Positions 9,636 to 58,412 of a stretch of DNA of 64,000 bases are shown here, one piece after another. Below the pieces are notes generated by a model. It saw only the letters and a list, made by a program, of their open reading frames with translations. It ran no database searches and had not been told where the DNA came from. Source of the DNA: Gonapodya prolifera JEL478 (Eukaryota; Monoblepharomycota; Monoblepharidomycetes; Monoblepharidales; Gonapodyaceae). The translations under genes were made by a program, and so were the position numbers. The stretch spans positions 189,160 through 253,159 of the forward strand of contig KQ965756.1 of NCBI GenBank assembly GCA_001574975.1, in the 5' to 3' direction. Position 1 is the first letter of the stretch. The number at the start of each line of letters is the position of its first letter.

Positions 9636-11643
9636 ATGGCCCACTATCCCCACTCGCTCTCCGCCGCGGACCTGCACTCCATCTCAGACTCCAACCCAGA
9701 CCAAGTGTTCCACAATCCACGATCGAACCACGGAAAGTCGGACCTGTCCCGCCGACGGAAATCCAGAGATTTGGATGCGCTACAGCTCAGCACCAACGTC
9801 TCGGACCCAGTGGGGGTCGCGGGATCGGGGGATGGCGATGCGAAGACAACACCACGGCCATTCTCCGTGAACCAAGCTCTCGTTTCGCTCCTTTTGGAGA
9901 CGCCGTCGCCTTACAATACGGTGTCGGGCGCAGGAGATGGAGTGGGGCTCAGTAAGGAGCTGCTGGCTCAGGAGGAGTACGCGGTCTTCTGTGAGTCAAG
10001 TTGGTTGGTCGATTCTGCGATTTGTGGTCTCAACCAGCCCGGTGCTGAACTCGCGTGGATGCAGTGGAACACCTTCTTTCCACCCCTTTGTCTTCCCTCC
10101 CCTCCGAACCCATGAACCTCGCTGCCCGCCACGCTCAAATTTCGGCCCAACTCGCCGACCTTACGCACGAACATTTCCCCGCCATTCTCTCCGCCCACGA
10201 TTCCGTCATCTCCGTCAGCAGCGGATTGGACCACATGGAGCGTTTTTTGGACGAGTTCCCCGCTGCGCTAGACGGCGTGTCGTCCTCCATCTCCGATTTC
10301 CTCTCACAAGCTACGGCGATCGCGGCGCGGCGCGATCGTGTGGCACTCGTTCTGGACCACTTGCCCACCCTTACGGATTTGCTTGAAGCACCTCAGCTGC
10401 TCCAAACGCTGGCGCGGAACGGTCACTACGACGAGGCCCTCGACCTGCAGCAACATATTGAGCGGATTCGTATGAGGGCGCCAGACTCGACGGTGGTGAA
10501 AGTGGTGGCAGAAGAGGTGAGTGCAGACGTTTTGACGTGATGGTACTTCTTCAAATTGACCCAACTGTCCACTGGCGCTTGGGGGACGGGTAATGAAAGG
10601 TCTCGTCCCTCTCTCGCAGCACTCTTCTGCACCTCCTCGCTCAACTACGCCAACCCACCCCTCTTGCAACCTCCATACGCCTGGTGGGACACCTCCGCCG
10701 GGCAGCGATCCTTCCGGACCACGCGCTGCGCGTGTCGTGGCTCGCAAGTCGCTGGGGAAGATTTGTGGAGCGGGTGAACACAGAGGCTGGAGGGACGCTT
10801 GCGCGGCATCCGACGGATGAAGCAGCAGCCGCAGAGTTTGTGCGGAAGTACGTGGATATTGCACGGGAGGAGATCCTGGACGCCATAGCGCAGTATCGTG
10901 CAATCTTTCCGGAGACGTCGACCAATGCCCCGATTGGGGGAGCTCAGCCCGCCACGATTTCTTCCATTCTTCCAACCTTTGTGTTGATTTTCACGTCTCA
11001 TCACCGCTCTCATCTCCTCCACTATCTTCCACGGATATCCGACCTAGCACAACTTGCCTCTCTCCATGCCCATGCGTCCTATCTGGGCCTTTCACTCGCC
11101 CGCCTCGGTGCTGACGTCAGGACTCCAACCGGCTCGGTGTGGGAGAATCGTGTCGGGGAAGTGGTGGAACATCACTTCCGAGAAGGCGCGAGGAGCATCA
11201 GTGAGGCGCTCGAGAAAGCCGGACCGGATGGACTCATGCCTCGCCCTGGTGGCGGTGATGGACTGCCCCTCCCCATTGCGCTTCTTAACCTCTGTCTCTC
11301 CATCTATAACCAGCTCCGCCACATTGCATTCGTGGCGCTCGTGCCGCGACTTGCACTGGCGCTGACAGCGGCGGTTGCGGAGGTCGCGTGGGCGTTGCTG
11401 CAGTGTGGGGAAAAGCTGCACATGGGCGATAGTCCGCACGAAGTAGGCGCGCGGGATGCCTACAGGGCGACTGCGAAGGAGTTGGCGGGAGTCGTCATAC
11501 CGAAAGTTGTGGAGGGGTTCGAGAAGGGTGTTTTTGGAAGCGTGGCCGCAGGAAAGGGTGTGGCGGGTGTGGTTGACACAAAAGCTGTCATGATCGTTCT
11601 GGATAAAGCGATTACGGTGCATGTTAGCGAGGGGAGAAGTTGA
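9636..11643 (+). CDS. COG8: Conserved oligomeric Golgi complex subunit 8
   Basis: Three exons (9636-9990, 10065-10516, 10600-11643) join in phase to 616 residues, close to the usual COG8 size. The N-terminal region after a basic Ser-rich tail reads YAVFLEHLLSTPLSSLPSEP, then LTHEHFPAILSAHDSV, RDRVALVLDHLPTLTDLLE and ARNGHYDEALDLQQHIER, which is the COG8 N-terminal pattern. The third exon begins VSSLSRSTLLHLLAQLRQP and continues as helical repeats. COG8 bridges the two lobes of the COG tether that steers retrograde vesicles to the Golgi; it acts on the cytosolic face. The acceptor at 10599 was chosen because it is the only one keeping the family frame. Confidence 0.92.
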
Positions 11644-46113: not shown

Positions 46114-46206
46114 CCTTGGAGAGATAAATAGCGGCGACGGAGATGATGCCCATCACTCTTCCAATCTTCCAACCTTCGCACAACACTCCAAACACAAATT
46201 ATCCCC

Positions 46207-47407
46207 ATGGCAGCATCCAACCACGTTTCCAAAGTTGCAATGGTCGGCGTGAGTAGCGCCATGATTGATAATTGATGAAGAATCGTCTGAACCATCTGTC
46301 CATTCGATGAAAAGAACGGCGGTAACTCGGGCATCTACATCGCCCAGGCCCTCATGGCTACCAAGAACTTCACCGTTTCCGCGTTGACTCGCCCAAATAG
46401 CACCAACAGTCTACCGGAAGGAGTCATTGCGAAACCCGTGGACTACAATGTGTTCTCGACACTTGTGGAGGCTCTTCGGGGACAGGACGTTCTTGTGATC
46501 TCGTTGAACGCTATGGCACCGCCAGACACACAAGAGAAGCTTGTTCGGGCGGCGGGAGAGGCTGGTGTGAAGTGGATCTTGCCCAACGCGTGGGGAGTTG
46601 ATGGAACATACGAACCCATTGGGCGCGATATGCCCATGATGGCAGGTGAGCCCGCAATATCCCGTTCCTTTGCCTTTGCCACCTTTTTACCCAATCCGAT
46701 ATTCTAATTCAGCGCAAACAAAAATCTGGGGTCTGATCTCCGAAATTGGCAAAAGCTCCTTCATCGCCGTTTCCACCGGGTTTTGGTACGAGTGGTCCCT
46801 CGCCATTCACGACGCCTTCGGATTTGACTTTGCCAACAAACGAGTGACGCTATACGACGACGGCAACTCCAAAATTCCCATTTCCACGTGGCCCCACGTG
46901 GGACGCGCGGTGGCAAGTCTCCTCAGCCTACCCGTCAGCGAGCCCGCCAAAGGACCCAGCCTCGAAAAGTACCGGAACTCCCAAGTATTCGTCAATTCTT
47001 TCCATGCCAGCCAGAACGACATGTTCGAGTCGGTGCTTCGCGTCACGGGAACGAAACGCGAAGATTGGACAATCACAACCGAGCCCAGCGCCGAGCGGTT
47101 CAGCACCAGCAAGGCGCTCCTTGGCAGCGGAGACCGGAGGGCGTTTGGGCGGATGCTGTACTCTCGCCTGATGTACGCCGATGGCTCAGGTGACTTTTTG
47201 AGGTACAGCACGAGTATCAATCACGATTTGGGGTTGCCGAAGGAGGACATGGATGAAGCGACCAGACGGGCAATTAAGCGCTCGCAGGAGGTGGACGCAT
47301 GGAGCCGTGAGTGAAGTTCTCGTGATGTTTTCTTGACGCCTTTGCTCATCGTCTGTGCTCTTCTTCTACTTACAGGTGGCACTGGAACTGAGAAGATAGA
47401 TAGATAG
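46207..47407 (+). CDS. NmrA-like/isoflavone-reductase-type NAD(P)-binding protein 1
   Basis: Four exons (46207-46248, 46315-46645, 46713-47306, about 47376-47407). MAASNHVSKVAMVG leads into the Rossmann turn NGGNSGIYIAQALMATKNF, then VSALTRPNS (the Arg often contacts NADP), VEALRGQDVLVISL, AGEAGVKWILPNAW and STGFWYEWSLA. The layout is that of NmrA-like atypical short-chain dehydrogenases, which either act as reductases (isoflavone and pinoresinol type) or as redox-sensing regulators. The catalytic Lys pattern is not certain. It is about 80% similar by eye to the paralog at 51.4 kb, with the same intron positions, so they are tandem duplicates separated by about 4 kb of repeat DNA. Confidence 0.88.
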
Positions 47408-50400
47408 AATTGCAGATTGAACTTGGGCGTAATAATCACTTTTGTCACCCTTGCATTATTTGCGACAATGAATATACATCGTGCAATCGTTTAACACACC
47501 GGACTCTCAGGCATCCACAAACCAGAGGACCAGTCTGGCAAAATGGGCACTCAATGTCGTGGAAAAAATTGCCTCAAATGGGTCACAACGATAGCGGCAG
47601 CAGCATAAAGGGATTGGGCCAAAGGCGTCAACATATGGTGTGAGGTGTCAATCAAAGACATTGGAAAGGTTGCCGAATAGTGCTCGTCGCCTTGCTGTCA
47701 TATTTGCAAGCAGCATACTTTTGACGAGGTTGCACGTGTCGAGAATTGTGCCAATGCCAAAAGAAGCCTAGTCGCTACGTCAGCAAACGATGCCGACGTC
47801 AGGCTCCTACAAGAGGAGCGGGCAATAGCTCTTGAAGTTTTCTTACTCAGAACTGCTTGAGTCTGGCACAACGGCGGAGTGATACAGCGGAATGTGTTTT
47901 GAAGACCACGTAGCTCGGGATTTTCGACATGTCGAGTCTTTCACAGAAAAAAGATAACAGCAAACGTCACCCTCAGGCACCCGACGGGAATGTGGTGGCC
48001 GGTTTGGAGGAGACGAGAAGAATTGTGGAGTTTACAACGCTTACTATGCAAAGCTGATAGTCAGACGATAATGATTTTGAAGACTTTAAAGAACCCTCCT
48101 CCAAGCGGAGAGTATCGCCCGAAATATTGTCGAAACAAGGTAAACGAGTTGAGTGTGCTGGATAAAACGAGAGGTCGTGTGTTGTACCAGCTGGGTACGG
48201 CAGACGCCTCACCACCATCTTCTATTCACTTACACACTGACGATGCTGCGTTTCCACAACGAGAACTGTGGAAGGCATACACACGTCCAAAAACGGGCTC
48301 GATGGAATCAATGTGATGCGAGGCGTCATTTTGGGTGTCGACTCTTGGGCAACACAGCCAATGTCAACAATTCACGTTGCTCCTGAAAACCAAACCTGCT
48401 ACCAAGGGGACCTGGAGGAGGGTGAGAAACGTAGCTGTCCACTATGAGCATGGCGTGACTCAAATGCTTTACGCCTGGTAATGGTTGGCGTACTTCCTCA
48501 GTTACAATGATTCGAGTGTTGCGCAGAAAAGAAATATTTACGTCGCCAAAAAGCCCCTTCCTCGAGAGAGGAACAGGCTCCGGGACGTCCAAATCTTGGA
48601 GGCAACGACACTGTGCATCGCGCCAAGCCGGTTGGTGTGAATTGTTCCTGTAAACAGAAACCACACTGGAGTAGATAACGTTGCTATATGCCGACTGACA
48701 GTGACGGGCATAGAGTACATTCAAAGATTCACAACATGGCGCAAGTCTGGAAGAGAAAGAGATGAAGCAAGTGGCATGCGAGAAAGCAAAGCAGGATGGC
48801 AAGAAGATTGTAGTGCGTTGTTAGTGTGGGTTTGCAAGGCCGCCGAATAGAAAAGCACAATTCTACTCTGGCCTGCCCACACAATGTGTGCCATAAATTT
48901 AATACGCAAGCAAGAGGTCCAAACATGGTGGTGAAACCAGCCGAAGAACAATGGACTTTGACGTCACAGCTCTTTTCCACGCTTTTAAGCAACGGTGCAA
49001 AAAAAAACATCAATGCAAGTGTGTTGTAAGGAATGTGGTCTCACATTGTGCTAGGCCCGTACAGTGACCGCTGGTGACCGCTGAGAATGACGTTGACGTT
49101 CCAACCTGAGAAGTGTAGGGGCCTCACAAAAGCCCCAAATGGGGTCAATGAAGTCAACTTAAGGAGAGACTGAGTAACAGTGACGTGCTGGGGCAACGAG
49201 ACGCCGCTGAGGCGCAAGAGTCGGCAGTGACCGAACAGCAAATGTCATAAAGCGACATAGCTCATTCCGTGGTGGGTTCCCGCACTGACTGAGGACGCAC
49301 GCACCGATAGAGAATTGTTTCCGTTAGGTGTGGCGGGGCTGTGGAGCCAGGTGGCTCGAACAAATGGTTTTAGCCTTTCTATCTTCCAGAAAGGCCAACA
49401 GTGTGTAATTGATGAAGGCAAGACCTCGACGTTAGGGTGACGTCGGCATCGCACCACAGTCACGACGCGACAGTGTGAGGACGCAAGCGTCCAAAACACG
49501 GGCTAGTCGAAATAATGGCAAGCGTCAACAAGGGAGCTGCCAAGCTGACTGTCGAAATCAAGCATTAAAGAGCTGACACCATTCATGTTCAAATTGCGAT
49601 GAGCTTTGGTGAACTTGGTAGCGTCCAAAAGGGTGCACTGGCTGCTTCAAAGCGGAAATCCAAGATCAGTGCAAACCCAAAACTGCGAAAGTTACAAACG
49701 TGATGTACTCAAAGAACCCATCCCCTGGGCAAGGAATGGGCGCCGGTACGTCCAAAAGTGGTGGTATAACGTGAACGAGGAATGGAGGGCTCCTCACAGG
49801 CTACGAACCCCCAGGGCGGCTGCCGTGGATGAGTTTTGTCAAACGTCGTTGGTGATCCTCTCTGCCCAGTTGGAACATAATGTGGCGCAAACTCGTGGTA
49901 GATGATTGGCACTTGGCGTAGTTCCACAGTTTCGTGTGTTTGGAGTATTGGCCCGAGTCACGGACGAAGTGGAGATGATGTCAACAAACGCACGTCTCCC
50001 CCGAGAGGGAAGCAAACGACGGACATCCAAAAAGGTGAATAGCGACAGCAATGTGCATGGCGCGAAACAGTGTGGATCGTGCCAGCAGACCTTCATCAGA
50101 TAATGTTGCAATATGTCATCTGACGTGGACGAGCATTCAAAGACAAAAAATCTTGGTAAAAGTCTCACAGGAAGTGCGCACAAGCAAGTGGGGTAGGTGA
50201 AAGAGGATTAGAGTGGGGAAAAGAACGTTGGTGTTGTGGACGGGGTCCTTTGTAAGGCCGCAAAAAGTAGAAGCTCCCTTCGTGACCACATGATGTGCGC
50301 CCAAACATTGGACACGCAAGCAAGAGGTCCCAACTTGATGGGCGTCATGCAGCTCCCGCGGCAGAGGCTGCGAACCACATGTCGAAACACAAAGTTGACG

Positions 50401-51224
50401 TCACTGCTCTACACATGACGTGGAAGGAGGCAACGTGCAAGCTAAAGCGTCCAAACTAGTGCACTGAGCAAAACGTGGTCGCGCATTGTGCCAGGGAAGA
50501 GAGACGCTCCGCTGCAGTGATGGATGGTTACCGTCTTACAAAAAAGATGCCGTTGCTGTGCGTCTGCACTGAAAAGTGTAGGAGGCACGCAAACGTCCAA
50601 AAATGGGATCAAGAAAATCCAAACCGGTGCAACGCTGAGTGGCGGGTGGGTTAGGTGGGCAACGTGAGGCCATCGAGACGGGCGAGTCAGTGGCGACCAA
50701 TCCGCACAGAGTCACAATAGCGACGATGTTCACGATGATGGTGGTGCCGCGGAATCTCCAGTGGAAGAAAAGGGCTCGTAGTGGGAGAGAGTACGGTGAA
50801 AGTGAACATGTCGTTGTGGAGAAGTGCTACATACTGCGGTCGCCAAAGTGGCAGGGCAATAGTGGAGCGATTCTTCGACTAGTGTACTGGTCCAACGCAC
50901 GTTGATATTTCTTAGCGAATAAGATTGAGCCATTATAATATGTGAACCTGAACCCTCTTGATCAACATCAATGATTTTCCCCCCACGCTGACAACTGATT
51001 GCTTACGGGAGTCCAAACCATACCGCAACAACAGGATATTCCCGCAGAAGGATGTCTCCCAACAGTTGCTACGATTTTATTGTCAAACTGCCTCCAGTGA
51101 TCATGTGTGTACAGAAATTTACTTCCAGCTCCGGGGACCACTGACGAAGACTCGAATTTCTATTCTTGGTTCATGTTCTTGCAAGTGATTATTCTGTGAA
51201 CGAGAGGAGAACTGTTGGTTAATC
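47408..51224. repeat. Gene-free degenerate repeat region between the NmrA-like paralogs
   Basis: No frame in 3.8 kb shows protein similarity. Two diverged direct copies of about 550 bp can be aligned by eye: 48480-49000 and 49910-50430, offset about 1.42-1.44 kb. Shared strings are GCAAGCAAGAGGTCC (about 48904 and 50320), GGCCGC followed by AAAAG..A, and TTGACGTCAC (48958 and 50395). The string CGTCCAAAA, or one base off, recurs near 48284, 49486, 49622, 49746, 50026, 50448 and 50595. Confidence 0.65.
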
Positions 51225-51304: not shown

Positions 51305-51381
51305 GCTCGAATTATAAGGCGTCCGGCGGGACAGTGCGATTAACACTCCAGCACTCAGATCGCACCCCGCTGATCACATCC

Positions 51382-52548
51382 ATGGCCGAATCTAACCGAA
51401 TCTCCAACGTTGCCATTGTCGGCGTAAGTGATACACACATCATCCACAACTGCGTCAGATCTCAGTCATCTATCCTACCCACTCAAAAGGCGGGCGGCAA
51501 CGTCGGAAAGAATATTGCCGAGGCTCTCCTAGCCACCAAGAACTTCTCCGTCTCCGCCTTGACTCGCCCCAACAGCCCCAACAGCGTCCCAGACGGAGCC
51601 ATCGCCAAACCCGTTGACTACGACGTGTTCTCGACACTTGTGGACGCTCTTCGCGGACAGGACGTACTCATAATCACACTGAGCGTCGCCGCGCCGCCAG
51701 ACACCCAGGAGAAGCTCATTCGGGCCGCGGGAGAAGCCGGTGTGAAGTGGATCCTGCCCAATGCGTGGGGAGGTTCAAGTGAGGCAATCCATCGAGACAT
51801 GCCCATGTTCCCAGGTGAGCGCACAATCTCCCATTGTTTCGTCATGTTCTCACCAACGCCTTCAACGTCCCACTTTAGTTCAGTCAAAAGCCTGGGCTCT
51901 GATCTCCGAAATCGGCAAAAGCTCCTACATCGCCGTCGGCACCGGGTTCTGGTACGAATGGTCCCTGGCCATCCACGACGCCTTTGGATTCGACTTTGCC
52001 AACAAGAAAGTCATCTTGTACGACGACGGAAACACAAAATTGCCGATTTCCACGTGGCCCCAAGTCGGACGCGCGGTGGCAAGTCTCCTCAGTCTCCCCA
52101 TCAGCGACAAGGCGAAGGGACCTAGCCTCGACATGTACCGCAACTCGCAAGTATTCATCAACTCGTTCTTCGTCAGCCAGAACGACATGTTTGAGTCGGT
52201 GCTCCGCGTCACGGCAACAAAGCGGGAGGATTGGACCGTCACATTCGAGCCCAGCGCCGAGCGGTTCAAGACCAACATGGCCGAGCTCGCCACGGGGAAC
52301 CGGAGGGCGTTCGGGCGGGCACTGTACGCGCGCGCAATGTACCCTGATGGATCGGGCAACTTCCTGAAGAGTCACACGACCATCAACGATGTTTTGGGGT
52401 TGCCTACGGAGGACATTGATGACGCCACCAGGGCGGCGATTAAGCGGTCGCAGGAAGTGGACCCGTGGGGGCGTGAGTTTTGGGTTCTCCTTTTTGGATT
52501 CTTGACGTGTTTTTGATCACTTTTGCTCTGATAGATGCAGGACGTTGA
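51382..52548 (+). CDS. NmrA-like/isoflavone-reductase-type NAD(P)-binding protein 2
   Basis: Exons 51382-51423, 51490-51814, 51879-52472 and a short last exon ending 52548. MAESNRISNVAIVG is followed by AGGNVGKNIAEALLATKNF, VSALTRPNS, VDALRGQDVLIITL, AGEAGVKWILPNAW, GTGFWYEWSLAIHDAFGFDF and RNSQVFINSFFVSQND. Domain, exon phases and intron positions match paralog 1, so function should be similar. Differences cluster around the variable loop after PNAW (GGSSEAIHRDMP against GVDGTYEPIGRDMP) and in the C-terminal helix. The last acceptor is either 52535 or 52540, which changes the final two or three residues. Confidence 0.88.
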
Positions 52549-55500
52549 TCGGCACAGCACAGAATGAGCTAAATTTTAGACAGCCCGAATTCCCAGAATA
52601 GCCGATTTGTTTCATTGAATTCAATACACTTCTCATTCCAGTCTAGTGTCATGCATTGCGGTTGCCGGTTAACGTCCGAGAAGCAAAAAGTGACGAGATG
52701 TCAAAAGGCGGCTCATTTGTGGGGAGCGACAATTCCCAAAAACACTGAAGCTCAAATCGTGTACGAATTGACATCATTCCACGTGCGGCACTCTGCTGCG
52801 ACAGTAGTCTCGAAGACGTCTAAAAGTGGACGAAGGCGGCGCAGGTGTGAACGGGGTTTGCGCCGAGAATATCCACCTCGGCAAACCTTGAGTACCACAT
52901 TCTCGGCGTGACGTCACTGCTCGATACAGTGCCTGGCTGGGGTAGCTTAAAAGGCGTGCGTCTAAAACTGGTGTGTGACAACGAAGTGCAGGCGGGCAAG
53001 GTGGAAATGCGGGTTGGTTGTGTGGTCAGAGCGGATTCTCTGTCGTTCATTAAGGAAGACGGCGCAGTGATAATGTCACACCACGTTGACTGTACTTCGA
53101 GGGTTTACTCGTGTTGATTGCGGCTCAAAATGCTGGAGAAAGAAAGCCTGAATCGTGGATCGTATTGCAAGAGACCGCGGCTTCTGTTAGAACAGCAAGC
53201 CCATATCAACAACTCAGAGGACGCATGACGCCCAAGTTAACATCACCGGTGAGAGTCAAAATGTTTTCAGCACGCTTGGAACGTTTAAAAGTAACCATGA
53301 GTGCCGACAGTCCAAGCAGGGCAGTGGCTCGTGGAGTTCTGCCGTGAATACCGTGTCTCAGTTTGCACCACCGTGAACCAGGCCATCAGTTGGAGAGGGC
53401 CCAACCGCGCAAGTGGCGTCAAAAAATAGAAGAAAATTTCTCACAACAGGATCACGTGGGGGACGTTGACTGTCGACTCTCGACACACTCTACAGAGGTA
53501 AATGATTGACGTCAACATAACGAACCCAGCCTGACGCCAGGGGGATCTGGGAGTGGCGTGAGTTGTATCACAAAAAATAGCGGCTCAAGCGGCCGGCATT
53601 GAAATCGATGACCGTCCCCAGCTTCGGAACATCTGTTGGGCTGTGAATCTGTTTGCGCCATCCTTCACACCAATGGGCCCAGGGGGTGGATATACATACG
53701 CGAGGTGACGTCCAAAAAAGCGTATGCGGCGTTGGCAAATGTCCCGTGGCAGTGTGTGGTCATGCCGTCCTTGTACCTGCTGGACCATATTTCGCAAATG
53801 ATTGATATGACACACCAACGTGAAGCAATCTCTGGCGGAGTCCCTACAGGGGCTGTGTCCAAAACGAATGGATGAGCGCAAGAGGCAGATGGTGCCCAGA
53901 CTGCCGGAGAGGAAATGGATGCACCAGAAGAGGTCAAAAATGATGACGGAGCCAGCGCGGAGCTCTATGAGGAGTGCGAGAGGTGTAAGCAAAACTTTTT
54001 TGCGATAAGTGCGTGTGGTTAGTGTCAAGGTGGGGGTGTGTTGCGCAAAATGCTTGTCACCTGGTGGGACCTCATGTGCAGTTCAATGGGGGCGTGGTCC
54101 CCTCCACGGTGAGTGTAGAGCTAAGAAATCGGATTGCGGCATTGCAAAGCTGGGGCAGATGCTTGCAGCGTCCAGTTACCGGGGGCTACGGATGGCTTGC
54201 CTTCGTCCCTGCAGTCCCAGACGACAACTTGACGTCACCGCGCAAGCTTTTGGACACTCCAGAAGAGTCTTAAGTGAGCTTGGAACGCCTAAAGTAAACA
54301 TGAGCACCGACAGTTCAAGCGGAGCAGAAACGCGTGGAGTACCCGCCACGTCCATTGGAAGGGGAGTCCTGATGATTTTACATGGCGCCGTCGTAAAAAA
54401 GGTTGCCAGTTAAAGACTGCCCAACTGCGCGGCAGTCCATTGTGGAGGAACTGAAAGATCAACACCACGAACCCATCCAGATACCAAAGGGGTGCACGAG
54501 CGGGGCGAGAAAACGTTGCGAAAAGTAACAGTCCAAGTGGCAGGTGGGGCAAAGGTGCAAAAGTCGACCTAAGCTACTAGGCAGCAGCATGTCCTTTTTG
54601 CGTCTTTGTTTTTTGACATCACCCTGCCCGCAAAGAACTCCAGGGGCAGATACATGCTCTCAAATGCTGAGACAAGTCACCCCGTTTGATGACACGGTTT
54701 TGTGACGTTGCGGTTCTGGGTTTGGAGCAAGAAGTGGTTAAGTGGCAGATGGTTTCCGCCACACACCTGACCCGAAAAGGGGTTGCCGTCACCACAGCAA
54801 AATAGCCCTCCGAAAGGGCGGGCTTCCTGCACTGGGAGCGTCCAAAAAGGGCAAAAGCAAATAGCAGCGTGCCGTGGATGAATATCCCGCGGCGTGTGTC
54901 GGTGGTTCAAAGGCTCCGATGGCGCTCTATGCGGTGCGGAGTTGTCTGACACAACCCACGCGGGGTGGCCGTTTCTGGCACGGCAACGGCAGGTAGCGTC
55001 AAAAAAGAGTGCCCACGAGAAAAGGCTGAGGGGGCCCTGACTTGCCCGCGAGTAGGACTGCAGAATTGGAGCTCTCAGTGTCCATGTCGGCCTCTGCCGG
55101 TTTACCCGCGCGAACAGTGACGGCGCCTGCGCGGACTCCAGAGAGGGAGTCGTGCGGGGCGCGTCGAAATTGGGGAGGCTGAGTGTTGGTCTTCTATAAC
55201 AGGCCAACCAATCCACGGATCGCACCCGTAGCGGTTACAAAGGCGTAGCGCTCGTTGACATTACCGATGACGAGCAAAAGTGGTCAAGCAGCAGGTGATG
55301 CAACTGTGTGGTGAGTTGTTTCCGCGACGGAACAGCTGACTTGAAGAAGGAGTTGACGTCACTCCGCCCAAAGAACCCGCGGCAAAGGGGAACTATCCTG
55401 CGCTGGGACCGTCCAAAAAGATGAGAAGCAGTACAGCGCAGCAAGGATGCTCCAAGTGTGATGCGTGCGTGACCAATTCCTCCTGTTGTGAGCAACAGTG

Positions 55501-57095
55501 GTGACTCAACCAACGTTTACCTCTTTGGCACTGTCCCCGTAGCAGCGAGACCAAAAACACAAGCAAATAATCAAAGGCAGATGGTGCCCAGAGCTGCCCG
55601 TGAGAAGGAACACTGAACTGAAAGTATCTGCCTCCACGCAGCATTAGCGAAGCGAATCAAAAACAATGACGGCACCCGAGCAGATTTCTATGAGGAGTGC
55701 CCGGAGGCGTGTCCAAATTTATTTTGGGATGGTTACTTGTGGGCAGTGGGCAGTGGCACGCTGGCGGTGTGGTGTAGAAAAGGTGGGACATCCAACAGCA
55801 AGAGATGGGCGTACAGTCCAAGCGGGGAGTGGTTCCTGGATCCCCTCCGTGGCGAATGCAGCAATCACAAACTTGGATGACGGCATTGCGAGATTGGCCT
55901 GTCTACTTAAAGACAGCTGCGTACTGTGTCCAAAAAGTGGTGTCAAGCTAGCCATTCGTTGAGCGGTGTGGCTCAGTGGGACACAGTTGACGTCAACGCG
56001 CAAGCCTTTGGACACTCAGAAGTGTCTCCAGCGAGCTTGGAGCGCCGAAAATAAACATGAGCGCCCGCATTTTAAGTAAGGGCAGTTGCACATTTGCAGA
56101 CGTCTTGCTACACAAGTGACACCACTGCGAAGCAAGGCCGCCAGACACCGTCAGGATACGTCCCAAATCAGCGTGCGGCGTCCAAAAAATAAAAGCAGAT
56201 CAGCTCACGTTGAGTTCGCATGGTGGGTGTGGACTGTCGACTGTTGACATCATATCATCAACAGCGGCCTCTTGACGTCACCGCACAAGACCAGCCGGGC
56301 ACTAGGCGCAAGCTGGCGTGACAGTTAAACGCCCAAAATAGAGGCAAGAGTCCAATTTGCAGCTGGGGAAAACGCGCGGTAGTCGGCTTAGTTACGGAAC
56401 ACGCGACACGTGATGGACTATGGTACCAACCTGGCGCTACCATGTGCTGGCGCTACCATGTGCTGTGCCAAGTTAGCCTGGGGCAGATCCACACGAGCTA
56501 ACGACCAAAAATGAAAGCAAGAGAAGAGTGGGTGCGTCAAAAAGGGTACACACGAGTGCAAATCGCCCAGCGGTACGGAACAGGAACCAGAAAATTCATT
56601 GACGTCACCATGAAGCACAAGATTGAGTACATGCGAGGTGACGTCCAACAAAAGGGGGAAGAGGCGAGTGGGTATGTCTCACCGGTCGCGATGACACGGT
56701 CTTTAAGACACCCCGCGCGTACAAGCGGCTCCCGGGGGTTAAGAATAGAATGACAAAGCAGCAGGTGAGGCAAGTGTGCGGCACGTCGTTTCCACCACGG
56801 AAGTGGCGACCCAAGAACGGTGTATGTTGACGTCACCGCTGCGGCAAAGAACTGCCCGAATGGAAGGGTTTTCTGCGCTGGAAGCGTCCAAAAAGAGCAA
56901 TAGTAGGGGCAGCAAAGCGTGGGTGTGCCGGAGTGAAAATGTCCCAGGTGATGCGTGTGGGACACCTAGACTGGATGTGCACATCGACATTGACACAAGC
57001 CACGTAGCGGGCTGAAGCCTCAAGCTTGAGAGCAGGCCGGGGGACGTGGGGTGCGTCCAAAAGATAAGCAAGGTCAAGATGCTCAGCGGGCACGT
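52549..57095. repeat. Degenerate repeat array with paired TGACGTCA / CGTCCAAAA boxes
   Basis: No gene is supported in 4.5 kb. TGACGTCA occurs at 52909, 53507, 54230, 55354, 55988, 56273, 56600 and 56828, usually as TTGACGTCAC. A second box, CGTCCAAAAA or a one- to two-base variant, follows at 52959, 54286, 55410, 56043, 56330 and 56885, that is 50-57 nt start to start. A one-base-off pair is at 54784/54839. A longer conserved string, GCTTGGAACG..TAAA...CATGAG....GACAGT.CAAGC, lies at about 53274, 54280 and 56034. Blocks such as GGCAGATGGTGCCCAGA and CTATGAGGAGTGC recur about 1.7 kb apart (53898 and 55580; 53963 and 55689). Confidence 0.75.
56431..56462 (+). repeat. Perfect 16-bp tandem duplication
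   Basis: CTGGCGCTACCATGTG occurs twice in direct succession (56431-56446 and 56447-56462), a recent slippage event within the otherwise diverged array. Confidence 0.9.
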
Positions 57096-58412
57096 TAAGT
57101 GATGGGAGGTTGGAGGTGGGAGGTGGGACGTGTGGGGCAACACAGAACGGAGGGTGGTGTGTGGTTTCACGAGATTCTTGATTTCATCACAACCGACAGC
57201 AAAATGAAGTAAACAACACACATAACCCAATCAAAAAAAAAAAAAATCTGCGACGAGCAGAAACTTTGCAAGTGCGGGCTGTACGACGTGGGATTGGGAC
57301 TGTAGCGATGAAACTTTTTTATTTTTATTTGTGATATTGGAATTGGAGTTATTGAGAGCTGTGGGAGGTGCAGGGAGGGGAGGGCAGAGAAAGGGGGTGG
57401 TTAGATAACGCGCGACACGGAGGACGGCGTGCTGGGCCTGGCGTGGTGGATGAAACTCGAGTCCGGCACATAGCATTGGGAGAGACTGAGTATTGGCGAT
57501 CGGTGGACGCGAGGCTTTGGTGGCGGGGTCGGACGGTGAAGGGGAGGAAGGAGTGCGATGCGTTGGTTGAGTTTGGGCGCGGCGAGATACGAGAGATGGC
57601 GGGTTTGGCGAAGATGGGAGGAACAGCAGATGGAGGGGAGATTTTCTGGAGGATTTGTATATGAGAGTAAGGTGATGATGAGCGGGCGTCGAGGATGGGT
57701 GTTGGTTATGAATCGGCGGATATCGGCGTTGAATGCTGTACGGAGATTTTAATTGTGACAGAGATGTCTAAACTATGATTGGTAGCAATTCCGTGGTGGG
57801 AAGGTTCTCAGGCAGCGACGTCACTGGTGGTCGGTGTGCTTGAATGTCGGAGGGCGGGAGGTTCAACGGTCTGCAAAGGCGACTTATGGCAAGAGGGGCA
57901 ATATACATAGCATAGATTCGCATCCGCCGACTCAGGGACGCAGGAGGGCACGTGACGGGTGAGGATGGCATTGGTTTCCTAAACAGGCAAGTCATACTTT
58001 TGAGCGGGCAAACCCCAAGCAAAGGAAAAAAAAAGGGAAGATGCGGAACGGATGCGGCCGCAGGAGAGTCAGCCTCAGGGCACTTGGATGGACTGCACGT
58101 TGTGAGAGCAGAAGCAGGAAACAGGAAGACAGGAAGAATAGGAGACAGGAGACAGGAATTGGAGACAGCGAGCAGAGAAGAGAGAGAGAGAGAGAGAGAG
58201 AGCGAGAAGGGAGGAGAGCGAGGCTACGCAGACAAGCAGACGGAGAGGCAGAGGAGAGTGAGGACAGACAGGACAGGGACAGACAAAACAGGTGAGCGCG
58301 GGTGCGGGAGTGCGGAATTGATTGGGGGCGTGGCACTGACAGATGCCGGGTGACAGGCAGTCGCACGCAGGCAGACGCAGACACCGGCAACCCCTCCACT
58401 CCCACGCAGACC
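57096..58412. other. Intergenic, no gene supported
   Basis: It starts after the repeat array, contains an A14 run (57233-57246), and ends in a purine-rich leader. GC-rich open frames on both strands between 57.3 and 57.75 kb look compositional; no family was recognised. A TTTTTTATTTTTATTT stretch lies near 57314-57329. Confidence 0.4.
58179..58202 (+). repeat. (AG)n microsatellite in purine-rich leader
   Basis: About twelve AG units lie within a longer purine-rich tract (about 58105-58290) holding repeated GACAGGA strings, just upstream of the large Pro/Ser-rich gene. It may be in the 5' UTR. Confidence 0.9.

Follow-up and report, generated by a model that had tools for sequence, protein, structure and literature searches.

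Two box-bearing arrays downstream of tandem NmrA-like genes

The stretch of DNA analyzed here, called the window throughout, comprises 64,000 bp of the Gonapodya prolifera JEL478 genome (contig C26, positions 189160-253159; 47.56 Mb in 207 contigs in all). It harbors two NmrA-like genes in tandem and two arrays on the same strand as the genes, one after each gene (Table 1). Within the arrays a palindrome of the cyclic AMP response element (CRE)/ATF type, TGACGTCA (box 1), recurs at a preferred distance upstream of a partner word with the core CGTCCAAAA (box 2), and this paired-box signal spans both arrays, not array 2 alone.

Table 1. Genes, arrays and paired units of the window, in window positions; array borders are approximate and offsets run from box 1 to box 2.
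Feature	Position	Strand	Remarks
NmrA-like gene copy 1	46205..47361	+	74.7% DNA identity to copy 2; upstream of array 1
array 1	48238..50724	+	2 exact TGACGTCA, 8 exact GTCCAAA
paired unit, array 1	50395..50455	+	offset 52
NmrA-like gene copy 2	51380..52516	+
array 2	52817..57100	+	on this strand 8 exact TGACGTCA, 9 exact GTCCAAA
paired unit, array 2	52908..52967	+	offset 50
family A unit	54229..54296	+	offset 56; second box decayed to CGCCTAAAG
family B unit	54783..54849	+	first box TGCCGTCA; offset 55
family B unit	55353..55420	+	offset 56
family A unit	55987..56053	+	offset 55
family X unit	56272..56340	+	offset 57
family C unit, short	56599..56654	+	offset 42
family B unit	56827..56895	+	offset 57

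The ten TGACGTCA copies listed in a preliminary description of this DNA were reproduced exactly, starting at 48959, 50396, 52909, 53507, 54230, 55354, 55988, 56273, 56600 and 56828. An eleventh copy lies at 11112, which brings the window to 11 copies against 1.37 (standard deviation 1.24) in dinucleotide shuffles, with a maximum of 5 among 100 shuffles. The partner pattern CGYCYAAAA is similarly enriched (18 occurrences, 2.26 expected), and 14 of the 18 fall within 48.2-57.1 kb, every one of these on the plus strand. Near-fixed offsets between the boxes had been reported for seven pairs (52, 50, 56, 56, 55, 57 and 57) and for an eighth with a mutated first box (55), and all were recovered as stated. 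Some of the second boxes quoted there are weak: CGCCTAAAG carries 3 mismatches, CGCCGAAAA 2, and CGTCTAAAA, CGTCCAAAC and CGCCCAAAA 1 each. In addition, the 56600 site has a nearer partner at offset 42 with 1 mismatch, the sole partner word of the 48959 site lies at 35 with 2 mismatches, and the sole word at the 53507 site has 4 mismatches.

It had been considered that pairs might be just as dense in unrelated DNA, which inside the window is not so. With up to 3 total mismatches and a spacing of 40-65, the 64-kb window holds nine pairs on the plus strand, all within the two arrays, none on the minus strand and none outside the arrays. Genome-wide, the pattern TGACGTCA-N33..63-GTCCAAA matches 38 sites, compared with 2 for a reversed-pattern control; a spacing of 64-94 yields 10 sites (control 2) and the opposite word order 11 (control 4). 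The 38 pairs are distributed among arrays of the array 2 type or array 1 (16), repeats on contigs C35, C62 and C93 (6) and single occurrences (16).

Repeat structure, relatives and age

Array 2 is an ancient, degenerate, satellite-like tandem repeat with a monomer of roughly 125-145 bp, dispersed in intergenic DNA. Distances between boxes give a best period of 134, broad over 124-146, and when the paired boxes were left out the box phase was equally strong in none of 500 random placements. Higher-order repeats are present as longer-range copies at offsets of ~0.6 to 2.8 kb. Segments of array 2 are 60-78% identical to stretches on C134, C25, C48, C55, C51, C95, C101 and C149, and single units resembling family A also occur on C41 and, by eye, on C168. 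Alignment within and between array regions produced 112 high-scoring segment pairs (HSPs), which overlap and are not independent, with a mean identity of 67% (58-86%); once the boxes set the direction of each region, 112 of 112 run in the same orientation and none is inverted. Consistent polarity is also seen in the counts of exact GTCCAAAA over eleven regions (41 on the array strand, 2 on the other), in GC skew (positive on the array strand in 13 of 13 regions) and in AT skew (11 of 13). By the sequence between the boxes, units group into families A, B, C, X and E, whose order differs among the several loci at which they occur. Tandem Repeats Finder called no monomer-sized repeat in either window array because the copies are too diverged; the only recent-looking duplication that it called is a perfect 16-bp tandem repeat of 2.2 copies inside array 2 (56431-56465). 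These are thus arrays of a few kilobases with segments 58-86% identical, and near-identical, homogeneous monomers are not the case.

The preliminary suggestion of a degenerate satellite therefore holds for array 2, given its box phase, higher-order repeats, homologous arrays and single orientation, and does not extend to array 1, which cannot be aligned with it. Array 1 is self-similar (48485-49256 against 49913-50724, 58%), and a stretch at ~49438-49556 is 71% like sequence on C81. No alignment between array 1 and array 2 or its relatives was found at E 1e-6 among the 112 HSPs (best E 0.017), and we rejected the treatment of the two arrays as one repeat. A model of the array 2 monomer built without array 1 finds array 1 at E 7e-4, and finds nothing up to E 1 when the box words are masked. 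Array 1 is either a different repeat or a relative of array 2 now too diverged to align.

Several further repeats carry the boxes. One on C62 contains nine GTCCAAA in 1.3 kb, with gaps between successive second boxes mostly of 143-155; of its first boxes, two are exact and have partners at 48 and 50, and a mutated one has its partner at 42. Its best match to the array 2 monomer model has E 8e-5, and masking of the words leaves a single match at E 0.021, so that array 1 and this repeat have little or nothing in common with the model beyond the boxes. A second stretch of the same type occurs at C81:81538. The repeats on C35 and C93 contribute two exact pairs each, and by eye the C35 copies share further sequence besides the boxes; there (L036:2401-3100) units sharing the same box 2 recur at a distance of ~520 bp, one of them also with box 1, and the stretch following box 2 looks better conserved. 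Repeated loci at C63:148195 and C63:149186 combine TGACGTCA and GTCCAAA at a longer spacing.

The arrays examined are set between ordinary genes. On C134 the flanking genes encode GTP cyclohydrolase II and a cyclophilin-TPR protein, and related stretches lie beside genes for an F-box protein (C25), a short-chain dehydrogenase (C48) and a ZIP transporter (C41). Among the loci compared, the window and C56 are the only ones with NmrA, which was dismissed as a carrier of the arrays. The C56 copy (L041:4754-5754) is a third NmrA-like gene, fragmented over different frames, and has part of the 3' flank ahead of array 1 in common with the window. Because this likeness does not reach the first exact box of array 1, the C26/C56 pair is silent on the array itself.

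Other duplicated segments are informative about age. Array remains are found at the same place in both members of the pairs C134/C149 and C95/C51, and the arrays of these pairs therefore predate the duplications. From the stop codon of the GTP cyclohydrolase gene to the right-hand flank, C134 spans ~9.3 kb with a gene inside and C149 ~2.8 kb; in the C149 unit, the first box and the interior look by eye better conserved than their surroundings. Together with C26/C56, these paralogous segments show ~65-89% DNA identity and keep gene order where seen, which points to an old duplication, segmental or of the whole genome, or to hybrid origin. The gene between the two C134 arrays (L011:8553 to L012:970), presumably a short-chain dehydrogenase by motif, has no match on the compared C149 stretch, and a Pfam search with two single pieces of it was empty. 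On C95 (L013:5900-7900) and C51 (L032:7600-7960) we also found a different degenerate repeat directly ahead of a tRNA-like gene of the paralogous segments; it contains GACCGTCCAAACG-type words and a TTTTATAT stretch and is present on C95 in several copies.

It had also been proposed that the boxes are the ends of a non-autonomous transposon. Remains of such an element, with the boxes as its ends or as transposase sites, would fit the dispersal over many contigs and the palindromic first box. In a search confined to the window, no long inverted repeat brackets the arrays, and only 22 imperfect arm pairs of 16-22 nt were found; no coding frame is present; and both paralogous pairs retain array remains in place. 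We regard a transposon origin as quite unlikely. A coding array was rejected as well: when array 2 was compared with other arrays in six frames, scores were weak and similar in every frame and alignment gaps were of mixed lengths, and array 1 had no match in this comparison. Sequence decay by repeat-induced point mutation or CpG loss was likewise discarded, as the ratio of observed to expected CpG in eleven array regions (0.83-0.99) is like that of the window flanks (0.96 and 0.89), with 0.75 for the C62 repeat. A nucleosome-type 10-bp rhythm of AA/TT/TA was unconvincing (0.99-1.37 for eight of the array regions, against flank values of 1.02 and 1.16).

Persistence of the boxes and what may maintain it

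Amid this divergence both words persist, at a preferred spacing, within tandem arrays of shared orientation. Unmasked counts of box identity are biased by locus seeding and double counting. In a masked test the words were hidden before alignment and then read underneath, with each pair of aligned places counted once: TGACGTCA was identical in 9 of 18 cases and GTCCAAAA in 11 of 25, compared with 34 of 651 for random 8-mers, an 8- to 10-fold contrast (50% and 44% vs 5%) drawn from small numbers in one genome. Most loci had been chosen by a search for exact pairs, 11 of which lie in the tested regions; without these picked pairs the values are 5/8 and 8/14. When exact GTCCAAAA served as anchor, TGACGTCA with at most 1 mismatch was found in the bin -60..-41 for 21 of 41 anchors, and from TGACGTCA as anchor GTCCAAAA fell in the bin +40..+59 for 22 of 34, with 0-7 in other bins. 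Removal of the 11 picked pairs left 10/30 and 12/23, respectively, and 0-6 in the remaining 20-nt bins from -320 to +319. Finally, when 51 monomers selected through box 2 were aligned, box 1 emerged ~50 bp upstream, and beyond the two boxes no stretch was strongly conserved. The survival of two words at a preferred spacing suggests that something still reads them.

Clustering by chance, or a simple neutral satellite in which the boxes happen to be the slowest-diverging part, could account for the common orientation and density through tandem duplication, and the aligned places are few. Set against this are the masked test and the presence of the same pair in repeats that cannot be aligned with each other, and we consider this explanation very improbable.

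The account that we favor, tentatively and somewhat short of calling it probable, is that monomers of these satellite-like repeats hold a module of two protein-binding sites under constraint, one the CRE/ATF-type palindrome and the other CGTCCAAAA. The full module of a monomer is ~65 bp long and consists of TTGACGTCACC, ~40 bp belonging to one of several families, and (A/G)CGTCCAAAA. The words would persist because sequence-specific proteins bind them: judging by motif, the palindrome may be occupied by a bZIP dimer of the ATF/CREB type and CGTCCAAAA by a partner protein. Each array would then present many closely packed two-site targets, with effects on surrounding chromatin or transcription, and unequal exchange would lengthen and shorten it. 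Pfam matches to bZIP number 19 in this genome, 18 of them above the cut-off, one of these only together with its neighbors. The earlier proposal of a bZIP-bound cluster is compatible with the multiple consensus palindromes TGACGTCA and, as far as predicted sites can tell, is the preferred account of box persistence. No report of the motif from repeats was returned by a literature search, which is not proof that none exists. Most decayed tandem repeats leave nothing testable; in the present case the two words and the distance between them have outlasted the surrounding sequence, which is down to ~60-70% identity or no longer recognizable, and the question of array function thereby becomes one for a binding assay with two short probes.

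Several observations weigh against such a module. The aligned places underlying the retention values are few in number, and single pairs outside repeats, at 16 against a background of 8-10, are only in small excess. Exact first boxes occur in only 2 of the 9 C62 monomers. The ~2.8 kb on C149 retain one TGACGTCA and one GTCCAAAA, and the aligned unit's box 2 has decayed; retention is therefore not general. No common target is visible because the flanking genes are unrelated, and the protein suggested for either box is a guess from its motif.

The main rival is use of the boxes by the repeat itself, whereby they would be kept for copying or shuffling it, through box-linked recombination or cut-and-paste, and not for regulation. 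HSP starts lie within 12 bp of box 1 in 25% of the 112 cases, compared with 7.7% (standard deviation 2.4) at random, and in 27% under two other settings, with alignment bias as a possible contributor; HSP ends show no excess at box 1 (4.5%). The order of unit families A, B, C and X also differs between loci, as shuffling would have it. A conserved block attracts alignment ends by itself, though this would be expected on both sides, and the arrays appear old and not freshly amplified, the 16-bp unit being all that Tandem Repeats Finder detects. We take this explanation as possible, if doubtful. The survival of words and spacing makes it possible to ask whether conserved satellite boxes serve regulation or repeat amplification.

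A broader and rather doubtful extension of the protein-binding module is that a two-box code, TGACGTCA-~50 bp-CGTCCAAAA, has been adopted by several otherwise unrelated tandem repeats through a dedicated pair of proteins that recruits, amplifies or marks them. It would take in the array 2 type, array 1 and the C62 type, and perhaps the C35 and C93 types, and it gains somewhat in probability because array 1, too, shares only the boxes. It is possible that these repeats instead go back to a common ancestor and have diverged past recognition. If the code were real, it, and not the monomer sequence, would make DNA an array, a parallel to the CENP-B system in which an ATF/CREB-like site takes the place of the CENP-B box.

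Comparison with known systems offers partial parallels. Human alpha satellite combines a short monomer, a CENP-B box kept amid divergence and higher-order repeats; the arrays described here share these traits, with a putative protein site as the box, and differ in being a few kilobases long and flanked by genes. In fission yeast, CRE-like sites, M26 recombination hotspots included, are bound by Atf1-Pcr1, that is, by an ATF/CREB protein of the kind predicted here from the motif; to our knowledge those sites have no second box at fixed spacing and form no tandem arrays. Homotypic clusters of transcription-factor sites likewise repeat a single site many times over a few kilobases, whereas the present ones are derived from tandem repeats, one-directional and bipartite. 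The closest precedent is provided by satellite DNAs of Meloidogyne chitwoodi and M. fallax, for which two conserved boxes, Box 1 (CENP-B box-like) and Box 2, mutual monomer identities of 32-64%, higher-order repeats, a box common to otherwise unrelated repeats and homology junctions at the box are described and explained by box-linked rearrangement (PMC3694981). Tandem monomers of low identity, higher-order repeats, two short boxes and a box shared by unrelated repeats are common to both systems; homology junctions at a box may be a further likeness, with HSP starts but not ends enriched at box 1, where alignment bias may contribute. The CRE-type palindrome, the partner CGTCCAAAA at ~50 bp and the short arrays between ordinary genes set the present case apart.

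Non-coding RNA and the U6 upstream element

The units had also been suggested to be promoter units of short non-coding RNAs. Were they genes or processing units of short structured RNAs, with the boxes as promoter or structural parts, their single strand orientation would be expected, and box 1 can pair with box 2, as many single units indeed fold. The family A hairpin scores slightly above shuffled alignments (equalled by 5/100 on the plus and 2/100 on the minus strand); it is weak and equally good on the opposite strand. Mean z values of the unit families (33 units) range from -0.04 to -1.42 on the plus strand and from -0.42 to -2.03 on the minus strand, with no strand preference, and in RNAalifold 7 to 68 of 100 column shuffles were equally good for families B and C and the C62 monomers. 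At gathering level, Rfam gave no match in 45.0-58.5 kb of the window nor in loci L011, L012, L015, L036, L030, L031 and L013; the best score was 21 bits for suhB on the minus strand at 54789-54859, where the cut-off is 41. The two-box pair is absent upstream of three U6 genes, U6 being the only small nuclear RNA (snRNA) checked. Given the missing Rfam matches in the scanned stretches, the lack of a consistent structure and the different upstream block of the three U6 genes, the RNA suggestion found no support and we judge it unlikely.

The block found upstream of these three U6 snRNA genes (L043, L044 and L045, on C71 and C45) consists of a conserved GCGGCCGACC with an adjacent TTTGCA, and in two of the three a TATA-like GGTATAAG lies between the block and the gene. 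It is a candidate for an upstream element of snRNA genes in this lineage.

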